Position numbers and translations under genes: made by a program. Below, one piece after another: positions 26,021 to 35,143 of a stretch of DNA of 64,000 bases (the stretch's first letter is position 1; the number at the start of each line of letters is the position of its first letter). The notes beneath the pieces are model-generated. The model searched no databases. It had not been told where the DNA came from and saw nothing but the letters and a program-made list of their open reading frames with translations. Where the stretch lies: contig JANINW010000006.1 in NCBI GenBank assembly GCA_024508935.1, positions 1 through 64,000 on the forward strand. The letters are read 5' to 3'. The DNA comes from Flavipsychrobacter sp. (GTDB lineage Bacteria > Bacteroidota > Bacteroidia > Chitinophagales > Chitinophagaceae).

Positions 26021-27157
26021 ATGCAAATCAAACAAATACGTTTCCTTCTATTGCCGCTATTATTCCTGGCAGCCTGTACCGGCAGCGAGAATAAATTTAC
26101 TGTTTCGGGCAATATCAGCAATATGCCGGAGCAATGGGTGTACCTGGAAGAAATGAACATTAACGACCTGGTGGTATTGGATTCCGTAAAATCGGATAAA
26201 AAAGGAAGCTTCGACCTGAACGGCAAGGCTCCTGAAACCGGCTTATACCGTCTCCGTTTTGAACAAGGCAAATTTGTATTACTATCTATAGACAAAGGCA
26301 CTGTAAAGCTGACTGCCGACTGGAACGAGCTGGAAAACTATAAAGTAGCCGGATCGCCGTCATCTGAAAGCCTGCGCGGTTTCCTGAGCACGGTAAGAAA
26401 CACCATGCGCGATTTCCAGACAATGGGCATAGTAATAGACTCTATGACCGCTCGCGGCAATGATAGTATGCTGGCATCTGCACAGGCAGATATGAAGAAC
26501 CTGAATATGGAATTTACCCGCTACATAGAGCAATATGCAGATACTACCCAGTACCTGCCCAATGCGCTTTTTGCCGTACAAATGCTGAATGCGCCTGCAG
26601 AAAAAGATTACCTGGCCGTATTTGTACAGAGCATTGCCGGCCGCTTCCCTAAATCTAAACTGGCTAAAGACTTCAGTGCTAAATACAGCCAGATGGTGAC
26701 CCAGCAAAACCAGCAGCAGGCTGCAGAAAATGCAGGACCGCAAATTGGCGGCGCCGCACCTGAAATATCACTGAACACTATAGATGGCAAAGCGGTTACC
26801 TTGTCTTCGTTCAAAGGCAAATATGTACTGGTAGATTTCTGGGCATCATGGTGCGGGCCTTGCCGTAAGGAAAACCCTAATGTACTTGCAGCTTACAACA
26901 AATTCAAGGATAAGAACTTTACCATACTGGGCGTATCCCTGGATGATGATAAAGAAAAATGGCAATCAGCAATAGAAAAAGATGGCCTGCCATGGACACA
27001 TGTAAGCGACCTGAAAGGCTGGGAAAGCGTTGCTGCCAGAACATATAATATACAGTCCATCCCAGCCAACTTCCTGGTAGACCCTGATGGCAATATACTG
27101 GCCAAGGACCTGCGTGGTGAAGACCTTGCCGCAAAACTTGCCGAAGTACTTAAGTAA
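26021..27157 (+). CDS. TlpA-like thiol-disulfide oxidoreductase lipoprotein with DUF4369-like N-terminus
   Basis: 378 residues: lipobox 'LAAC' (Cys 19), a DUF4369-like beta domain (about 26-110) and a helical region to about 230. A thioredoxin-fold AhpC/TSA-TlpA domain follows, with the active site 'WASWCGPCRKENPN' near 275 and cis-Pro 'SIPANFLVDPDG'. It reduces or isomerises disulfides in the periplasm, a very common Bacteroidota architecture. It is monocistronic, with its own promoter and terminator. Confidence 0.93.
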   Translation: MQIKQIRFLLLPLLFLAACTGSENKFTVSGNISNMPEQWVYLEEMNINDLVVLDSVKSDKKGSFDLNGKAPETGLYRLRFEQGKFVLLSIDKGTVKLTADWNELENYKVAGSPSSESLRGFLSTVRNTMRDFQTMGIVIDSMTARGNDSMLASAQADMKNLNMEFTRYIEQYADTTQYLPNALFAVQMLNAPAEKDYLAVFVQSIAGRFPKSKLAKDFSAKYSQMVTQQNQQQAAENAGPQIGGAAPEISLNTIDGKAVTLSSFKGKYVLVDFWASWCGPCRKENPNVLAAYNKFKDKNFTILGVSLDDDKEKWQSAIEKDGLPWTHVSDLKGWESVAARTYNIQSIPANFLVDPDGNILAKDLRGEDLAAKLAEVLK

Positions 27158-27175
27158 CAACAATACGCTTACTAT

Positions 27176-27209
27176 AAAAAATCCCTTACCGTCGCGTAAG
27201 GGATTTTTT
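27176..27209 (+). terminator. Terminator after the TlpA-like gene
   Basis: A 14-bp stem (AAAAAATCCCTTAC and complement) with a 6-nt loop and a T tail. Confidence 0.85.
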
Positions 27210-27250
27210 ATTTAAGGTGGGTGAAGTATCTTGTCTCAAACCTCACCTGT

Positions 27251-28006
27251 ATGCTGCGCAAAATATTTACCGCTAAAACGAAAGAGAATAAAGATATTAT
27301 TAAATGGAGAGGGCATGAAGTAACCCGTATGGAGGCCTTTAGCGATGCTGTATTTGCATTTGCCATTACCTTGCTTATTGTAGCACTGGAAGTACCCGAA
27401 ACGTATGAAGAGCTCATGCACAGCATGCATTTCTTTATCCCGTTTGCCATATGCTTTATCATAGTCTTCCAGATATGGCTGGCGCAGAACCTGTTCTTTC
27501 GCCGGTTTGGCCTGCACGATGAATGGACACATATATTAAATGGCATCTTGCTGTTTACAGTGCTTTTCTTCATGTACCCGCTGAAATTTCTTTTTGCAGG
27601 CATATTCTCACCAGACAATACATTTAAATTAAACGGCGAAGAAGAAGCAAAAACTTTATTCTATATCTACAGTGGCGGCTTTGCTTTCATCTATCTACTA
27701 TTTACACTCATGTACCTGAATGCCCTCAGGAGAAGATTGCTATTGGGACTATCGGACGAAGAAAGCTTTGAAGTAAAAACTTACCTGTACCGCTTTGCGG
27801 GCATAACTGCCCTGGCAGTATTGTCGGTTTGCTTTGCCTTTTTGGGTGGTGCATTTCTTATACCCGCCTGGGTGGTGTATATATTCATTGGGCCAATGAT
27901 AGGGCTGATCCATGCGCGCAGAAACAAGAAATTCAAAAAGCTGTTCCCAAACTACCACGCAGTTGTAACAGTTTCTTTACAAGAAGAACTGGCAGAAAAA
28001 AACTAA
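27251..28006 (+). CDS. TMEM175-type potassium channel family protein (DUF1211)
   Basis: 251 residues from the Met at 27251. The signature 'RMEAFSDAVFAFAITLLIV' contains the FSD motif in the first helix of bacterial TMEM175 channels. Six hydrophobic segments follow in total. Homologues are tetrameric K+-permeable channels of the inner membrane, although many DUF1211 proteins are untested. The start at 27221 would extend into the region just after the terminator and is less likely. Confidence 0.87.
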   Translation: MLRKIFTAKTKENKDIIKWRGHEVTRMEAFSDAVFAFAITLLIVALEVPETYEELMHSMHFFIPFAICFIIVFQIWLAQNLFFRRFGLHDEWTHILNGILLFTVLFFMYPLKFLFAGIFSPDNTFKLNGEEEAKTLFYIYSGGFAFIYLLFTLMYLNALRRRLLLGLSDEESFEVKTYLYRFAGITALAVLSVCFAFLGGAFLIPAWVVYIFIGPMIGLIHARRNKKFKKLFPNYHAVVTVSLQEELAEKN

Positions 28007-28022
28007 GGTCTTCAAGTGTAAT

Positions 28023-28053
28023 AAAAAAGCCACCCTTTAAGGTGTCTTTTTTA
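28023..28053 (+). terminator. Terminator after the TMEM175-like gene
   Basis: An imperfect stem (AAAAAAGCCACC / GGTGTCTTTTTT, one mismatch) with a 6-nt loop and a T tail. Confidence 0.7.
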
Positions 28054-28091
28054 TTGGTATGGTTTTTAATCATTTAGATAAAAAGGAGCGT

Positions 28092-28403
28092 ATGAGTTTT
28101 TTATTGCTGATGGCTATGTACAAAAGACTAATAGGCATTGCAGCAGGCGTATTTACTGCAATTTCGCTCATACCACAACTTGTAAAGATCGTAAAAGAAA
28201 AGCACGGAGATGATGTATCTATTTCTATGCTGCTCATTTTATTAGGCGGGCTGATATTATGGATATGCTATGGCTACCTGATAAAGGACTGGCCATTGAT
28301 AATAACCAATAGCTTTTCTTTACTGTTCAACATCCTCATAATAACCTTAAAAGCCTACCATAAAAAAAGAAAGCTCAAACCTAAGACGGCAGGTTATAGG
28401 TGA
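28092..28403 (+). CDS. SemiSWEET-type sugar transporter
   Basis: 103 residues with three membrane helices and the PQ-loop motif 'SLIPQLVKI' in the first, plus 'GGLILWICYGYL' and 'PLIITNSFSLLFN'. SemiSWEETs form dimers that let sugars cross the inner membrane. An AAGGAG just upstream supports the ATG at 28092. Family alignment would also fit the Met codons at 28110 or 28116. The 3' end overlaps the convergent gene at 28381 by 23 bp. Confidence 0.85.
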   Translation: MSFLLLMAMYKRLIGIAAGVFTAISLIPQLVKIVKEKHGDDVSISMLLILLGGLILWICYGYLIKDWPLIITNSFSLLFNILIITLKAYHKKRKLKPKTAGYR

Positions 28404-28716
28404 CGCCATTGGCCGCAATATATTCCCTTATAGGCTGCGCGATCACTTCGTCTCCGTCATCTATATTACAGGCAAGTATTACTACGTCATAAGCATCATC
28501 CTTGCACTGTGCCAGTGCTTCCGATAATTTTTTGTTCTTGCTGTAAGTACTAATAAAGCGTTCCAGTTCCGCCTCATCATGCGGGGCCATTGTAACGTGG
28601 TCTATCACGCAACGTACAGCTGTAAGATCGGTACGTATCACTACCTCCGTATCTATCAGGTCTTCGAAATCCTCACATATTTCCTCTGCCTGTTCCTTTG
28701 TAAAAGCAATCCTCAT
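28381..28716 (-). CDS. Hypothetical cytoplasmic protein (111 residues)
   Basis: No signal peptide or recognised domain. The protein is acidic with mixed helices and strands. It is last in a four-gene minus-strand unit, 7 bp after the symporter gene, which suggests linkage to transport or its regulation, but this is only context. Its end overlaps the convergent SemiSWEET gene. Confidence 0.65.
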   Translation of the reverse strand: MRIAFTKEQAEEICEDFEDLIDTEVVIRTDLTAVRCVIDHVTMAPHDEAELERFISTYSKNKKLSEALAQCKDDAYDVVILACNIDDGDEVIAQPIREYIAANGVTYNLPS

Positions 28717-28723
28717 TGTTTGT

Positions 28724-30406
28724 TTATTTGTATCCGGTTTCTTTTGTTTTAATAGTCAAAGTGCTTATTAATACAACCATTAATGCACCTATCACATTCA
28801 GCCATAAAAACGATACAATATTAAGATTGTAAATGACAATCACGCATATCTCTGTAATAATTGCTGCAAAAAAAACACCGTTTGCATGCGCCTTTTTTAT
28901 GTAGAATGCTGTAAGGAATATACCCAATATCGTGCCATAAAATAATGACCCGAGAATATTAACCGCTTCTATCAGCGAACCCATTTTTGTAGCGAACATG
29001 GCCACGGCAATGCAAAACACACCCCAGCCCAGCGTATGCGCACGCCCATAAAACAATTGCTGTTTTTCATTGAGATATGGATGCTTTAGCAAATGTATAT
29101 CCATCATAGATGAGGCTGCGAGCGAATTGATCGCTGCAGAAATAGAGCCCCAGGAAGCCAGGAAAATAACAGCAAATAACAAGCCTACCAATCCCTTTGG
29201 AAGTGTATGCTTGATGAAGTACAGGAAAATATAATTGGTATCATTCGTATCAGAACTATACCCGTATGCGGTAACCTTGCGGCGCACGCTGTCGTGCAAC
29301 CGGCTTAATTGGCCTTGGGTTTCCCGGAACTGATCGATTAAACCCGGCGATACAACCTGCCCTCCTTCTTTTGCCTGTACCAATGCAGCTGTTTGTATCC
29401 TGTATTGCTGGTGCAAAGCATTGTACTGCTGCTCTATCTCTTTCGTTTCCTGCATCCTTTCCTGCTTCATGGCATGATAAGCGCCGTCATTAAAGTATAG
29501 CGGTGCAGGATAGAAACAATAATAGGCAAACAGCAAGGCGCCTATCAGCAAAATAGAGAACTGCATAGGTATTTTTACAATACCGTTAATCAGTAAACCC
29601 AGCTTACTCTCCTTTTCATCCTTGCCGCTTATATACCTGCCTACCTGGCTGTTATCGGTACCGAAATACGATAGCGCCAGGAAAAACCCTCCTATCACAC
29701 CACTCCATATATTGTATTTATCCTGCCAGTTGAAACTTGTGGTGATCACATTTAGCTTACCCGATTTACCGGCTACATACAGGGCATCTGAAAACCCTAT
29801 ACCTGCAGGCAGATTCTTCACTACCAAATAACCTGCAATACCCATAGATGCAAGAATAATTAGGAATTGAAGTTTCTGCGTATGCGCAATAGCTTTAGCA
29901 CCTCCGCTAAAGGTATATACCATCAGCAAGCCGCCGGTTATAATATTGGTAACGTAAATATTCCAGCCCATAATGGAAGACAGGATGATGGAAGGTGCGT
30001 AGATACTAATGCCGGTAGACAATCCCCTCGAGAGCAGGAATAATATGGCGGTCAGCAATCTCGTTTTTCGGTCGAAGCGCTGCTCGAGATATTCGTAGGC
30101 GGTATATACATTCAGTTTTTTGAAAATGGGTATGAAGGTGATGCAGATGACCACCATTGCAATGGGTAAACCGAAATAATATTGCACAAAGCGCATACCA
30201 TCGGTATACGCCTGCCCCGGTGCCGATAAAAATGTTATTGCACTGGCTTGCGTAGCCATAATACCCAGCAACACTATATACCAGGGCATATTCTTATCTG
30301 CTAGCAGGTAAGTATCAGCACCATGCTGACCACGACCTTTATACACGCCGTAGCTGATGATGCCTAAAAGTGTAGCAAATAATATGATCCAGTCTATAGC
30401 GCTCAT
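28724..30406 (-). CDS. Sodium:solute symporter family protein
   Basis: 560 residues from the Met at 30406 ('MSAIDWIILFATLLGIISYG'), with about thirteen membrane helices. SSS family signatures include 'MPWYIVLLGIMATQASAITFLSAPGQAY', 'NIITGGLLMVYTFSGGAKA' and 'LSYFGTDNSQVGRY'. A charged, coiled-coil-like insert of about 80 residues lies between late helices ('MKQERMQETKEIEQQYNALHQQ'). It imports an organic solute with Na+; the upstream deacetylase suggests an amino sugar or related glycan product. Its ATG overlaps the TGA of a 34-residue membrane peptide gene. Confidence 0.9.
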   Translation of the reverse strand: MSAIDWIILFATLLGIISYGVYKGRGQHGADTYLLADKNMPWYIVLLGIMATQASAITFLSAPGQAYTDGMRFVQYYFGLPIAMVVICITFIPIFKKLNVYTAYEYLEQRFDRKTRLLTAILFLLSRGLSTGISIYAPSIILSSIMGWNIYVTNIITGGLLMVYTFSGGAKAIAHTQKLQFLIILASMGIAGYLVVKNLPAGIGFSDALYVAGKSGKLNVITTSFNWQDKYNIWSGVIGGFFLALSYFGTDNSQVGRYISGKDEKESKLGLLINGIVKIPMQFSILLIGALLFAYYCFYPAPLYFNDGAYHAMKQERMQETKEIEQQYNALHQQYRIQTAALVQAKEGGQVVSPGLIDQFRETQGQLSRLHDSVRRKVTAYGYSSDTNDTNYIFLYFIKHTLPKGLVGLLFAVIFLASWGSISAAINSLAASSMMDIHLLKHPYLNEKQQLFYGRAHTLGWGVFCIAVAMFATKMGSLIEAVNILGSLFYGTILGIFLTAFYIKKAHANGVFFAAIITEICVIVIYNLNIVSFLWLNVIGALMVVLISTLTIKTKETGYK

Positions 30407-30507
30407 GCCCAGTATTGGGTAAACAGGTAGTATAAAACAATTTGAAGCAGCAGTACTGCCAGTACTGCTGCATACCATTTATTCCATTTTTCTTTTTGCA
30501 GCCGCAT
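30403..30507 (-). CDS. 34-residue single-span membrane peptide coupled to the symporter
   Basis: The ORF reads M-R-L-Q-K-E-K-W-N-K, then a hydrophobic helix 'AAVLAVLLLQIVLYYLF' and T-Q-Y-W-A. A charged N-terminus and one membrane helix fit a transporter microsubunit. It starts 3 bp after the deacetylase stop, and its TGA overlaps the symporter ATG (ATGA), so ribosomes pass from one to the next. It is too short for routine gene finding, but the spacing strongly suggests a real gene. Confidence 0.75.
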   Translation of the reverse strand: MRLQKEKWNKWYAAVLAVLLLQIVLYYLFTQYWA

Positions 30508-30510
30508 ACT

Positions 30511-32967
30511 TTATTTTCCTATGCTCAGCATATTCATCATCAGCCTTATTGCCCCTTTATTACCTGCCGGCAACTGGCGGAAGAAAGATAAAGAGGTATA
30601 GATATAATGTCCTTTACCATACGGTGCATACAGTGTACTGCCGGTAAGCGGCTGTTCGCCGGTATCGTGCATACTGAAGAGCGCCTGGTATTTCTCATCA
30701 TACTTTATAGGATAGTATAAACCACGCTCCTGCACCCAGTCACTGAAGTCGTCATTGGTAATGACGTTTGGATAGCTCATCAGTTTATGCTTCGGCAAAA
30801 GAAAATCTACTTTAGCATCTTCTTCAGTGGTTCTCTGCGAAGTAAGCGTCAGCGGATAAGGTCCTATATTGGTTGTAGACATATCCTGCAGGGTATTATA
30901 CTGCATTACAAGCGTTCCGCCATTATGTACATATTCTAGCAGCGGGTGCATCCACAATGCCATACGCTTTTCAGTGTTTACAGCGCGCACCCCAACTAAT
31001 ACTGCATCGTATTTCTTCAGTTTGTCGGCGTGCATGTCTTCCGCTTTCAAAACATCTACCTGCAAACCGGTTAGCGACAGGATATTGCCTGTCAGATCTC
31101 CAGCGCCCGGGATATAACCTATGCGTTTAGCCGTGGTTTTCCAATTTGGCTTCAACACCTTGATAGCAGTCCGTGTAAAATATTGCAGCGTGGGTATATG
31201 CTCATACTGTATGAGGTTTTGCTTCCTGTTTGCATAATCTGCATCTGAAGACAGGTCTGCATACAGTGTGAAGTCGCTGTTGATGTTTTTAGTCTTTTCT
31301 GCCGGTATCGTTAATGTAATAGTCGTATCTCCTTTAGGAAGATTCAGATTATCGGCTACAGCAGATTGCATATTGCCATATACTCTCAGGCGTCCGTTAT
31401 GAATATCTTTAAATGCACGGATATGCACCTCTGCCTTAATGCTGCCATCCGGCTGCATCACCAGCAGGTTTCCTGAAGTAAAATCCAAAGACGCTGGTGG
31501 AACAATACGTAGCGGCTCTATCATATCGCCATGTGTAGGATCCAATTTTTTATACGACAATGGCACCTGCATATCGAAATAATTGCTTCCGATCTTTACA
31601 CGCACGGTAGCAGCTAAAGTATTAGGTGCTTCTGGATAACCTCTTTGCATTGCGTTGCCGGGTGTATAATGGTCATTTGCCGGGCCAACCTGCGATAGCC
31701 AATATGGTTCTGTAACCGGTGTATTGGCAGGTATCGTTATATTATGGTCAAGCGTAAACAAAGTGTCTTCACTCAGCCTGATATTAGTAGTTGTATCAGC
31801 ATCCGGCCATTTGATAGATTTTACCCTCACCGGCATACCTGCACGGGCTATCATACGCAACGTAAATGGCATTTTACTGCCGGCTGTAGCCTCGGGCTGT
31901 TTAGTGGTCAGCTCTGCCATTATACCGGCGCAGTGCAAAATAATTTCATCTAGCTCTGCAAGCTTCTGCGTACGCCAGTAGGCATTCTCTACAGTCTCTA
32001 TTTGTTTACGGAGCGCCATCAACGATTCCAGGCTTTCTTCGGGATGCCTGAAATTATATGTCTTCAATATTTGCCTGATAGCATCGCCTATCTCTGGCCT
32101 GTCTACACGGTTCCAGGTGATATCTATACCATCAAACAGCGATTCAGATAATGAATCTCCGTCCACGTACTTAAAGTATTCTGTTTGCACACCCGGTACA
32201 CTTGGCGTGCCAGCACCCTGGCTGCGATGTATGCTGCGGCTAATACCGGCCAATTCACCCGAGCCCATGCCTGACAAAGGGCTGTATTGCCCAACAGGTA
32301 GTTTCAACTGGTTCTCAGCAGTCGTATTGCGGTCACCAAATTTGAAGGTATTCCATACCAGGCTTTTCGGGCTCCACGGTTTAACATAGGCCAGCTGGTC
32401 GGTAAATTGGGTTTTATCGCCTGCAGCTTTAAATGCTTTTTCTGCTATAATCGCCGAAGCGGCATGTTGCCCATGGCCTGCCTGTTCATTAGGCGGAAAG
32501 CGACAGATGATCACATCGGGCCTGAACTTGCGTATGACCCATACAGCATCTTCTGTCAGCCATTGTGCATTCCAGTGCTTAAATGTTTCATTGTAGTTTT
32601 TAGAAAAACCAAAATCTACCGCGCGCGAAAAATATTGTTCGGCGCCATCCAGTTTACGCGCTTCTATCAGTTCGTGGGTACGTATCAATCCAAGGGCGGC
32701 ACCTTGTTCTGTGCCCAATATATTCTGCCCTCCATCACCTCGTGTAAGTGAGAAGTAAGCAGTACGGATATTTTTTTCATTTACCAGCCATGCCAGCAAA
32801 CGAGTATTTTCATCATCGGGGTGGGCAGCGAAATAGAGTACATTGGTCAGGTTCTTAAGCTGCGCTATTTCATGGTATATCTGCGCCGAGTTGGCAGGCC
32901 TTACCTGTTGTGCGGTAGTGTGTTGATATGCAGCCAATGCTGCCAGTGCCAGTAGTATTTTCTTCAT
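30511..32967 (-). CDS. Exported PIG-L (LmbE) family deacetylase, large form
   Basis: 818 residues with a signal peptide (1-19). A PIG-L domain at about 38-250 carries the metal motif 'AAHPDDENTRLL' and a later 'GHGQH'. A long beta-rich middle follows, and then a C-terminal ThuA/GATase1-like domain ('KKYDAVLVGVRAVNTEKRM', 'EYVHNGGTLVMQYN'). PIG-L enzymes remove acetyl groups from N-acetylglucosamine-type sugars using zinc. It is first in an operon with the microprotein, symporter and a hypothetical gene, so it may process a glycan whose product is then imported. Confidence 0.88.
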   Translation of the reverse strand: MKKILLALAALAAYQHTTAQQVRPANSAQIYHEIAQLKNLTNVLYFAAHPDDENTRLLAWLVNEKNIRTAYFSLTRGDGGQNILGTEQGAALGLIRTHELIEARKLDGAEQYFSRAVDFGFSKNYNETFKHWNAQWLTEDAVWVIRKFRPDVIICRFPPNEQAGHGQHAASAIIAEKAFKAAGDKTQFTDQLAYVKPWSPKSLVWNTFKFGDRNTTAENQLKLPVGQYSPLSGMGSGELAGISRSIHRSQGAGTPSVPGVQTEYFKYVDGDSLSESLFDGIDITWNRVDRPEIGDAIRQILKTYNFRHPEESLESLMALRKQIETVENAYWRTQKLAELDEIILHCAGIMAELTTKQPEATAGSKMPFTLRMIARAGMPVRVKSIKWPDADTTTNIRLSEDTLFTLDHNITIPANTPVTEPYWLSQVGPANDHYTPGNAMQRGYPEAPNTLAATVRVKIGSNYFDMQVPLSYKKLDPTHGDMIEPLRIVPPASLDFTSGNLLVMQPDGSIKAEVHIRAFKDIHNGRLRVYGNMQSAVADNLNLPKGDTTITLTIPAEKTKNINSDFTLYADLSSDADYANRKQNLIQYEHIPTLQYFTRTAIKVLKPNWKTTAKRIGYIPGAGDLTGNILSLTGLQVDVLKAEDMHADKLKKYDAVLVGVRAVNTEKRMALWMHPLLEYVHNGGTLVMQYNTLQDMSTTNIGPYPLTLTSQRTTEEDAKVDFLLPKHKLMSYPNVITNDDFSDWVQERGLYYPIKYDEKYQALFSMHDTGEQPLTGSTLYAPYGKGHYIYTSLSFFRQLPAGNKGAIRLMMNMLSIGK

Positions 32968-32980
32968 GATATCTGTAAAA

Positions 32981-33012
32981 ATAAACCCACAGCGTTAATA
33001 GCCGTGGGTTTT
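32981..33012 (-). terminator. Terminator after the DUF2911 gene
   Basis: The minus-strand stem AAACCCAC / GTGGGTTT has a 13-nt loop with inner pairing, followed by ATTTTTAC. Confidence 0.7.
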
Positions 33013-33036
33013 AGGTTTTTATAAGTTTTTACATGC

Positions 33037-33876
33037 TTACATTTTGTTTGCAGCATCAATTATTTTCTGCCCCTGGCTTACATAGTCTGCTTCAAAAGCA
33101 GAACCTTTAGCAGTTTCCATAGAAGTTTTAGCTGCAGTGATAGCATCCTGCTTTTTACCCAGTTTCTGAGCTATACGTGCTTTCAGCATCCACATATAGA
33201 AAGCCTTAGGATTTTGCTCTACCGCTTTGTTTACATAGCTGTATGCTTTATCCAGGTTCTGGTTTGTTTCAAAATAGTAGCTGGCTGCCTGGTAGTAAGG
33301 TATAGAAGGATTGTTGATAGCCTGGTCGATAGATTTATTCAGGCGCTCTTCATTATCAGCTTTTACAGGTATTACAACCTTAGTTTTCTCCCAAACCAGT
33401 TCTATATTGCAGCTATTGAAAGTGATATTGCCAATATTGATCGTAAAGGTATTGGTCAGTTTTTCCTGCGTCCTTGCTTTTACTTTAAAGCGGGTTATAT
33501 CATCTGCTTTGTCATAACCGGCTGTACCCCAGTTACCTGTACCTTTATTGAATATAACTTCCCAGTCTTCTTTACCCGGAATTGTATATAAAGCGTATTC
33601 ACCTGCTTTGAACAAGGTATTATTGATGATCACATCCTCGCCGAATTTTATTTTTGTGGCAGAGTTAGCCCCGGTGCGCCATACATTGCCATAAGGCACC
33701 AGGTCGCCAAATATTTTACGGCCGCGCATAGAAGGACGGCTGTAAGTGATCTCTATACTTGAGGTAGAAAAATCCTGGCTGATCTTAGCGCCTGGGCTCA
33801 GTGCAGGTAATTTCAGTTGTGCAGAAGCATCGGCTACAGAAAAGAACAATGCTAATGCAAGTAATACTTGTTTCAT
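33037..33876 (-). CDS. DUF2911 domain exported protein with TPR-like tail
   Basis: 279 residues from the Met at 33876, with a signal peptide (1-20, ending ASAQ). DUF2911 spans about 25-165 ('RGRKIFGDLVPYGNVWRTGANSATKIKF', 'GEYALYTIPGKEDWEVIFNK'). The C-terminal 90 residues form TPR-like helices ('YYFETNQNLDKAYSYVNKAVEQNPKAFYMW'). The family is abundant in Bacteroidota and has no proven role. It is monocistronic. Confidence 0.87.
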   Translation of the reverse strand: MKQVLLALALFFSVADASAQLKLPALSPGAKISQDFSTSSIEITYSRPSMRGRKIFGDLVPYGNVWRTGANSATKIKFGEDVIINNTLFKAGEYALYTIPGKEDWEVIFNKGTGNWGTAGYDKADDITRFKVKARTQEKLTNTFTINIGNITFNSCNIELVWEKTKVVIPVKADNEERLNKSIDQAINNPSIPYYQAASYYFETNQNLDKAYSYVNKAVEQNPKAFYMWMLKARIAQKLGKKQDAITAAKTSMETAKGSAFEADYVSQGQKIIDAANKM

Positions 33877-34017
33877 ATGTTGTGTGATTTTGCGAGACAC
33901 AAAAATATAGGTTTCATGTAGCTACACAAAAGTTATTATCTATAGGGCCTAAAGATTTTATAAATAGCCCGTTTAAAACAGAATGCTATTTAACTTGCAG
34001 CCCTCAAACATATTTTC

Positions 34018-34314
34018 ATGGATCATACAATCAATTTAGCCATACAGGTACTACCATTACATAAAGACCAGCAGGAAGCGTATGCCATTATAGACGAGGC
34101 CATCGCCTGTATCAACAGGTCTGGCCTGAAATACTTGGTTTGCCCTTTCGAAACAGTAATAGAAGGCCCTTATGATCAAGTGATGAAACTGGTGGACGAA
34201 ATACAGGATACATGCCGCACCGCAGGGGCAAGCTCTATCCTTATCAATATGAAGCTACACCGCAGCTTTGAAAAAGACATGGCTATTGACGATAAAATAG
34301 GCAAGTACAAATAA
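34018..34314 (+). CDS. MTH1187/YkoF-type thiamine-binding protein
   Basis: 98 residues forming a ferredoxin-like fold. The family features are 'AIQVLPL' at the start, 'YLVCPFETVIEGPYDQVMKLV' and 'ILINMKLHRS'. Homologues bind thiamine or its pyrimidine part and form tetramers. It lies 28 bp before pyrF, but a -7 box sits in that gap, so pyrF may be transcribed separately. Confidence 0.85.
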   Translation: MDHTINLAIQVLPLHKDQQEAYAIIDEAIACINRSGLKYLVCPFETVIEGPYDQVMKLVDEIQDTCRTAGASSILINMKLHRSFEKDMAIDDKIGKYK

Positions 34315-34315
34315 T

Positions 34316-34323
34316 TACCTTTG
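34316..34323 (+). promoter_or_regulatory. -7 box of pyrF (TACCTTTG)
   Basis: A perfect TAnnTTTG box directly after the preceding stop codon and 19 bp before the pyrF ATG. Confidence 0.55.
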
Positions 34324-34342
34324 CAGCCCAATAGGAATTGTT

Positions 34343-35143
34343 ATGAACCGCACGCAACTGGTAAATGCCATCAGGGAAAAGAAATCTGTATTATGTGTAG
34401 GACTGGACACGGACACTACCAAAATACCCAAACATCTTTTTGCAGAAGAAGACCCCGTATTTGCTTTTAATAAGGCTATTATAGATGCTACAAAAGATTA
34501 TACGGTAGCTTATAAAATAAATACGGCATTCTACGAGGCGCAAGGCATCAAGGGCTGGATAAGCCTGGGCAAGACCCTTGACTACATTCCGAAAGACATA
34601 TTTACTATTGCCGATGCCAAACGGGGTGATATAGGCAATACGGCTGAGCAATATGCACTTACCTTTTTTAATACCTACCCTTTCGACAGTGTAACGGTGG
34701 CGCCATACATGGGTTCTGATAGTGTAAAACCATTTTTGCAGTTTGAAGGTAACTGGGCGATTGTATTGGGGCTGACTTCAAACGCAGGCAGTGCTGATTT
34801 CCAATTACAGCAATGCGGTGATGAATTGCTGTACGAAAAAGTATTGAAGACAGTAGCCGGCTGGGGCAACCCGGGCAACCTGATGTTTGTAATAGGCGCT
34901 ACCCGCATGGAGCAACTGAAACATATACGCACCATCCTGCCCGATCATTTCTTTTTAGTGCCAGGCGTAGGTGCGCAGGGCGGCGATGTAGATACTGTAT
35001 GCCAAAATGCTATGAATAAAGATGGCGGTATTCTTATAAACGTTTCCCGCGGCGTGATATATGTAAGCGAGGGGCAGGATTTTGCTGAACGTGCCGGCGA
35101 AGCAGCGAAAGCTTACCAGCAGCAAATGGCTGCTTATTTATAA
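34343..35143 (+). CDS. pyrF: Orotidine 5'-phosphate decarboxylase, class 2
   Basis: 266 residues. It decarboxylates OMP to UMP, the last step of pyrimidine synthesis. The long-form (class 2) signature 'DAKRGDIGNT' occupies residues 91-100 with the catalytic Asp/Lys network, 'LCVGLDTD' is near the start, and 'VPGVGAQGGD' binds phosphate. Length fits the class. pyrD of the same pathway is at 2728. Confidence 0.96.
   Translation: MNRTQLVNAIREKKSVLCVGLDTDTTKIPKHLFAEEDPVFAFNKAIIDATKDYTVAYKINTAFYEAQGIKGWISLGKTLDYIPKDIFTIADAKRGDIGNTAEQYALTFFNTYPFDSVTVAPYMGSDSVKPFLQFEGNWAIVLGLTSNAGSADFQLQQCGDELLYEKVLKTVAGWGNPGNLMFVIGATRMEQLKHIRTILPDHFFLVPGVGAQGGDVDTVCQNAMNKDGGILINVSRGVIYVSEGQDFAERAGEAAKAYQQQMAAYL

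Follow-up and report, generated by a model that had tools for sequence, protein, structure and literature searches.

The 34-residue open reading frame (ORF) between a PIG-L family deacetylase gene and a sodium:solute symporter (SSS) gene of Flavipsychrobacter sp. is a real, conserved gene under purifying selection. We propose, with a probability of roughly three in four, that its product is a constitutive single-helix accessory subunit of this subfamily of SSS (SLC5) transporters, held in the membrane with its N terminus inside; we infer both its binding to the symporter and its effect there. A sequence-only reading of the window, the whole stretch of 64,000 nucleotides that was analyzed, had raised the possibility of a transporter microsubunit. 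That suggestion is now supported by the link of the peptide to the symporter, by its retention when the two genes are unlinked, and by its covariation with one surface of the symporter. The features of the locus are as follows.

32983..33011, minus strand: terminator-like 11-pair hairpin in the gap from the upstream DUF2911 gene to the deacetylase gene (consensus match)
30511..32967, minus strand: 818-aa deacetylase of the PIG-L family, whose gene opens the trio (PF02585)
30403..30507 including the stop codon, minus strand: gene of the single-helix membrane peptide, 34 aa (ORF translation, homology, selection, AF2)
30409..30486, minus strand: helix codons, residues 8 to 33, with the conserved stripe (conservation periodicity, AF2 helix 3 to 33)
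30403..30406, minus strand: ATGA, in which the symporter start ATG overlaps the peptide stop TGA (sequence; recurs in relatives)
28724..30406, minus strand: sodium:solute symporter (SSF/SLC5), 560 aa, proposed partner (PF00474; 13 predicted transmembrane [TM] helices)

The ORF, read on the minus strand from 30507 to 30403, translates as MRLQKEKWNKWYAAVLAVLLLQIVLYYLFTQYWA, followed by the stop codon. Between the last base of the deacetylase stop, at 30511, and the peptide ATG, which begins at 30507, there are 3 nt, and the peptide TGA (30405-30403) and the symporter ATG (30406-30404) together read ATGA. These coordinates agree with the 3-bp spacing and the overlap that the sequence-only reading had described, and the charged head and one membrane helix that it had proposed are recovered as a basic N-terminal head and a single predicted helix at residues 3 to 33 (AF2, mean pLDDT of 81). 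The upstream gene matches PIG-L (PF02585, E value of 2.8e-13) and the downstream gene matches SSF (PF00474, 1.3e-32), with no other Pfam domain in the symporter at an E value of ≤1. A 584-aa form of the symporter that starts at 30478, given in the ORF listing, is unsupported. Position 30406 is the likely start, because the alignments with other genomes almost all begin within five residues of it (at residues 1 to 5 of the 560-aa protein). The trio of PIG-L, peptide, and symporter genes is probably its own transcription unit, since the hairpin sets it apart from the upstream DUF2911 gene; the hairpin call is a consensus match only, with 6 such matches in the region versus 4.8 expected. An Rfam search of 27000-35000 gave no match. 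The next two genes downstream (27221-28403) are convergent with the symporter; their products are a TMEM175-like channel protein and a PQ-loop protein.

Symporter orthologs were found at an E value of ≤1e-60 in 69 of 99 genomes, counting that of the window, and 68 loci were examined, the one genome with two partial symporter matches (G083) being left out. In 65 of the 68 loci, that of the window included, the symporter gene is immediately preceded by a homologous ORF for a one-helix peptide. The stop/start overlap is exactly that of the window in 48 loci, and in 4 more it is an ATGA at a symporter start lying two codons further upstream; together, 52 of the 65 peptide-carrying loci show the ATGA overlap. 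The peptides of relatives are 29 to 56 aa long, depending on the start chosen. Over the last 28 peptide codons of 20 close relatives, the median dN/dS was 0.20 in the peptide frame (107 of 190 pairs with finite dS), versus 0.73 and 1.86 in the two other frames over the same codons; symporter codons 6 to 33 gave 0.15 (66 of 190 pairs finite). The sequence-only reading had argued for a real gene, had asked for conservation upstream of homologous symporters, and had looked to frame-disrupting changes in close relatives as grounds for giving the gene up. The conservation is there, no such changes were seen, and the copies are intact.

A chance ORF is ruled out by this conserved position and by the purifying selection. 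The same conservation and selection bear on a second form of artifact, in which the ORF would be a mis-framed N terminus of the symporter, for example one joined to it by a programmed frameshift to give a 14-helix protein. The C terminus of the peptide and the N terminus of the symporter would lie on the same side of the membrane, and a fusion would thus be topologically possible. However, the spacing between the two varies among relatives, from overlap up to 96 nt, separate copies of the peptide exist, and a scan of 259 loci, 99 of them with an in-frame extension of at least 15 codons upstream of the symporter start, found no peptide match in those extensions. The lone value from that scan was an E value of 0.9, in the paralog L002. 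The fusion is rejected on the spacing, the separate copies, and the scan, and we give a chance or mis-framed ORF practically no weight.

To follow the peptide more widely, a profile (A1) of 57 rows, from 57 of the 65 peptides, was run against 395 genomes of the phylum, giving 135 matches in 124 genomes; the symporter (E value of ≤1e-50) is present in 143 of the 395. The great majority of the profile matches, 114 of 135 (in 113 genomes), precede the symporter on the same strand by no more than 94 nt, and among matches at an E value of ≤1e-6, 67 adjoin the symporter versus 2 that do not. Most of the genomes with an adjacent peptide (101 of 113) had not contributed to A1. At an E value of ≤1e-4, 107 genomes have both genes, 2 the peptide only, 36 the symporter only, and 250 neither (Fisher P value of 5e-62, to be taken as a guide only, the genomes being related). 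Among the 30 symporter genomes without an adjacent A1 match, 21 have another short one-helix ORF ≤50 nt upstream (15 reached by an iterated, lenient profile and 6 assigned solely from their position and hydrophobicity). In 5 others the peptide gene lies elsewhere, and the last 4 have no peptide (G254, G205, G228, and G236). The symporter start was examined in 29 of these 30, and G192 was examined on the peptide side only.

A search of related loci gave the peptide in 22 of 26 loci that cover the symporter start, with carriers that include Taibaiella lutea, T. helva, T. chishuiensis, Chitinophaga tropicalis, C. ginsengisegetis, and C. terrae. Five of these 26 (L166, L172, L176, L179, and L191) repeat relatives already counted, and three of the 29 related loci were left out: L187, without the symporter start, and L193 and L194, which are distant. 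Two paralogous symporters that were examined (L002 and L155) have no peptide. The trio also occurs in the phylum of a candidate division KSB1 genome, where 9 of 79 genomes gave a match at an E value of ≤0.01, 7 of them at ≤1e-6. Six of those seven loci were examined, and the match stands beside a symporter in five and downstream of PIG-L in all six. In two of these loci (L290 and L291), an ORF scan requiring ATG did not recover the peptide.

The recurrence of PIG-L raises an alternative partner. The peptide could serve the deacetylase, as an anchor or otherwise, or the trio as a whole, and not the symporter. PIG-L lies upstream in 20 of the 25 related loci having at least 3 kb of upstream sequence, and L290, one of the six loci from the KSB1 genome's phylum, has PIG-L and a peptide match with no symporter visible within its 3.1 kb. 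However, the peptide adjoins the symporter in L172, where PIG-L is 853 nt away, and in L174, L176, and L177, where PIG-L was not found within 3.5 kb upstream. The data support a tie to the symporter more than to the deacetylase, and we regard a peptide that serves PIG-L or the whole trio as highly improbable. Two further sets of loci do not bear on the choice. L109, L111, L114, and L192 lack the peptide and have PIG-L immediately next to the symporter, with PIG-L extending to the symporter start in L109, L111, and L114; this is neutral as to the partner. Peptides on other contigs (L275-L279) have no symporter or PIG-L match within about 1.5 kb and favor neither.

The remaining 21 of the 135 A1 matches are not adjacent to the symporter, the better ones being in G123, G365, G185, and a genus represented by G122, G132, G148, and G192. 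In the four genomes of that genus, the peptide and symporter genes are about 15 kb apart, and in G365 they are 108 kb apart. In G098, G482, G483, and G484, the symporter has no adjoining peptide and the peptide is found on another contig, as judged by contig number or length, at E values of 1.5e-12 to 2.3e-11. The unlinked copies retain the motif, and pooled pN/pS was 0.13 for the copies separated by 15 kb and 0.15 in the comparison of L277 with L278. The match in G185 (E value of 9.4e-5) is in a 202-aa frame with a stop. Six weaker nonadjacent matches in long frames (L156-L161) were set aside; the loci show no symporter match, and by eye these look like ordinary membrane helices.

Some of these loci were also read by eye. 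The loci of the 15-kb separation are L126 (G122:C17:7000-25500), L162-L165, and L272, and the distance is common to four species of the genus. The intervening 15 kb or so in G122 holds genes of SusC/SusD type, sigma/anti-sigma, nagB-like, small PIG-L, ROK-like, and SLC13-like genes, and reads as a SusC/SusD-type and amino-sugar cluster. In L173, L175, and L178, the symporter has been relocated beside a divergent FeoA-like gene, and in L276-L278, the peptide stands alone on another contig near a lipoprotein-like gene. In G123, an intact peptide lies beside a symporter remnant that aligns only at residues 1 to 30 and 500 to 545 (L128, G123:C19:30500-34500).

The natural separations of the genes provide a test between a protein and a leader ORF, in which translation alone matters, ribosomes re-initiate at the overlapping ATG, and the peptide is a by-product. 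The ATGA overlap in most loci counts in favor of such a leader, and there is a precedent in cbrX, upstream of the SLC5 gene cbrA in Pseudomonas, which was first argued to be a leader-type ORF in a report where a same-length, frame-shifted peptide kept CbrA made (PMC6591292). However, here the amino acid sequence itself is under purifying selection and is conserved on one face, the peptide ORF ends tens of nucleotides before the symporter in some loci, and nine genomes keep the peptide away from the symporter, with the low pN/pS values given above in the two sets compared. Persistence of unlinked copies would be expected of a trans-acting protein and not of a leader. The leader-only reading is rejected on selection and on the persistence of those copies, and we consider it very unlikely.

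The peptide sequence itself is consistent with a helix that has a partner. A conserved stripe of residues (W8, Y12, V15, L19, I23, Y26, T30, and W33) runs along the helix, and conservation over residues 8 to 33 is periodic at 100 degrees, to an extent reached by 17 of 20,000 permutations. Among 190 nonredundant peptides, Y12 is kept in 188, W8 in 178, and T30 in 141. The eight residues before the helix contain 414 lysines and arginines in these peptides versus 105 after it, with the count higher before the helix in 144 of the 190 and tied in 39. Because this excess precedes the helix, the positive-inside rule would place the N terminus in the cytoplasm and the C terminus outside.

The symporter was modeled with AF2 (pLDDT of 75.9), and 13 membrane helices were counted, named TM0 to TM12, the last at residues 535 to 550. 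The model matches NIS, SMCT1, and SiaT with Z scores of 33.0 to 35.6 over 445 to 462 residues, as a LeuT-type SLC5 fold. It aligns with SGLT2 residues 21 to 549 and ends after TM12, and so has no TM13. A long insert between TM7 and TM8 (29267-29506, symporter residues about 301 to 380) is variable among relatives, with predicted long helices on the outer side by model topology.

Covariation was analyzed by mean-field direct coupling analysis (DCA) on 190 peptide-symporter pairs, left after identity filtering of 228 loci whose symporter has 440 aa or more; the set is thin, with a Neff of 122 for 493 columns. Symporter residues 301 to 388 were left out, as the insert had taken 15 of the top 40 interprotein pairs in a first run. 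The top pairs (symporter-peptide) were L218-F29, A290-F29, I82-L16, L125-Q31, Y101-L16, I87-Q22, and I276-V18. Seven of the top 10 fall in TM2, TM7, or the TM5/6 loop, which hold 99 of 462 columns with helix borders derived from the model. In a null set with peptides permuted within clades (36 runs), the mean was 2.0 and the maximum was 5, with 0 of 36 runs reaching 7. The combination of TM2, TM7, and the TM5/6 loop ranks first among the 390 ways of taking two helices with one loop, nearly tied with the runner-up of TM7, TM12, and the same loop (4.92 versus 4.86). L218 and A290 lie at the periplasmic end by model topology, where F29 should also lie. Single regions were each reached by null runs (TM7 by 2 of 36, the TM5/6 loop by 4, and TM2 by 6), and none is decisive alone. 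Over the top 100 pairs the excess fades, with 5 of 36 null runs reaching the observed count; the helix borders for that test had been set after the DCA result, and the top-10 test was repeated with borders from the model. Three top pairs fit poorly: L125-Q31 and L542-Q4 are off the site, and L292-N9 is at the wrong membrane depth. A mutual-information version was noisier, with L218-F29 again first and TM7 in 14 of the top 100 pairs with 8.4% of columns. The covariation favors, as a statistical prediction, docking at TM2 and TM7 beneath the TM5/6 loop.

On these grounds we envisage the following for the accessory subunit. One helix would span the inner membrane, with the basic N terminus in the cytoplasm, and its conserved face would rest against the exterior of the symporter bundle domain, with TM2 and TM7 alongside and the periplasmic TM5/6 loop above. 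Termination and re-initiation at the ATGA overlap would give matched synthesis of the peptide and the symporter, a translational coupling that the gene overlap suggests. The peptide would then help the 13-helix symporter to fold, to be stable, or to pair, as MAP17 does for SGLT2.

A helix bound to the symporter could alternatively be a conditional regulator that inhibits it, alters its specificity, or marks it for proteolysis, after the manner of MgtS, MgtR, or AcrZ; small regulators of 28 to 49 aa are described (PMC10710835). Losses in some lineages would suit a modulator. Whole-genome searches for the peptide gave as best matches E values of 0.36 in G066 (287-aa frame), 0.023 in G097 (326-aa frame), 0.46 in G228, and 0.054 in G254 (59-aa frame), and none in G205, G236, or G485. 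True losses are probable in G066 and G097 (one genus), G205, G228 and G236 (one genus), G254, and G485, and the peptide would therefore not be indispensable everywhere. However, the overlap would imply a roughly constant stoichiometry with no separate control, unlike the stress-induced regulators. We think a conditional regulator unlikely and prefer the constitutive subunit.

A Pfam search with the window peptide gave no family at an E value of ≤1, and Pfam and NCBIfam searches with the A1 members gave scattered weak matches, the best at 0.0014 and 0.0018, with each family matched by a few of the A1 members at most. A1 against PDB chains gave nothing at an E value of ≤0.5 and two matches at 0.56 and 0.94, neither of them MAP17. 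A search of the literature in open full-text papers found no description of the peptide family. Small membrane proteins of the DUF485 (YjcH/ActP), DUF4212, and DUF997 families are encoded beside bacterial SSS genes, and these and DUF3311 proteins are longer, with two helices. The peptide resembles all four in being a small membrane protein encoded beside an SSS permease. No match to any of the four was found for the window peptide, and none is among the 25 families listed of the 47 weak ones found with the 57 A1 members. DUF3311 is described as a small protein encoded beside a bacterial SSS gene in the MctP system (PMC9100948). AcrZ, MgtS, MgtR, and MgtU are likewise peptides of 28 to 49 aa that act on a transporter but, as described, act on other transporter classes, as regulators and not as co-encoded SLC5 partners (PMC10710835).

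The known parallels also include two SLC5 auxiliary subunits, CbrX and MAP17. CbrX of Pseudomonas is also a tiny membrane peptide whose gene overlaps an SLC5 start (PMC6591292, PMC13022988). As described, however, CbrX is about 58 aa and a two-helix hairpin with both ends inside, in contrast to 34 aa and one helix here; its partner is an SLC5 protein fused to STAC and histidine kinase domains, whereas the 560-aa SSF protein here has no such domains; and its description is from Pseudomonadaceae, whereas the present peptide is found across Bacteroidota and in the KSB1 genome's phylum. In a 2026 cryo-EM preprint (PMC13022988), the bundle of CbrA is given as TM2, TM3, TM7, and TM8, and CbrX is described as lying against TM3 and TM8, under the TM6/7 loop on the periplasmic side. 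In our numbering these elements are TM2, TM7, and the TM5/6 loop, the site favored by covariation, with TM7, TM12, and the loop nearly tied; the CbrX site was learned after the first covariation runs. Because CbrX is reported there to copurify with CbrA and yet to be dispensable for growth on histidine, loss of the peptide may possibly have a mild or conditional phenotype. MAP17 (PDZK1IP1) of human SGLT2 is likewise an auxiliary SLC5 subunit with a single TM helix. It contacts TM13 of SGLT2, a helix that the symporter here does not have; the outer face of the SGLT2 bundle is described as staying fixed together with MAP17, and a role in localization and folding is suggested by the authors (PMC10803289). 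We file the peptide as a putative SLC5 micro-subunit outside the CbrX and MAP17 families, CbrX having been compared by description only.

The resemblance of the predicted site to that of CbrX suggests a broader idea, that a family of single-helix SLC5 subunits, found in Bacteroidota and in the KSB1 genome's phylum and matching no Pfam or NCBIfam family, uses one micropeptide docking site (TM2/TM7 under the TM5/6 loop) at which CbrX arrived independently. We hold this tentatively, with the balance tipped slightly against it. If true, bacterial SLC5 transporters would in general have micro-subunits, most of them unannotated, and anyone who studies the structure or transport of a bare symporter would have only half a complex in hand. 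The present case is a dependable example of a gene of 29 to 56 codons that is absent from the family libraries searched, and genome comparison points to its partner and to a predicted site of docking. The case extends the idea of SLC5 auxiliary subunits, known from MAP17 and CbrX, into a large set of environmental bacteria, and it is a reason to coexpress symporters of this subfamily with their peptides.

A search of a plasmid collection with the symporter protein gave no match at an E value of ≤1e-60. In L100-L107 (G302, G173, G230, G396, G109, G356, G187, and G419), which belong to other families of the class, the symporters are 64 to 66% identical to that of the window. Within the window's own family, outside its genus, identity is mostly lower, at 52 to 62%, with G056 at 69%. 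This pattern points to possible horizontal transfer of the trio.
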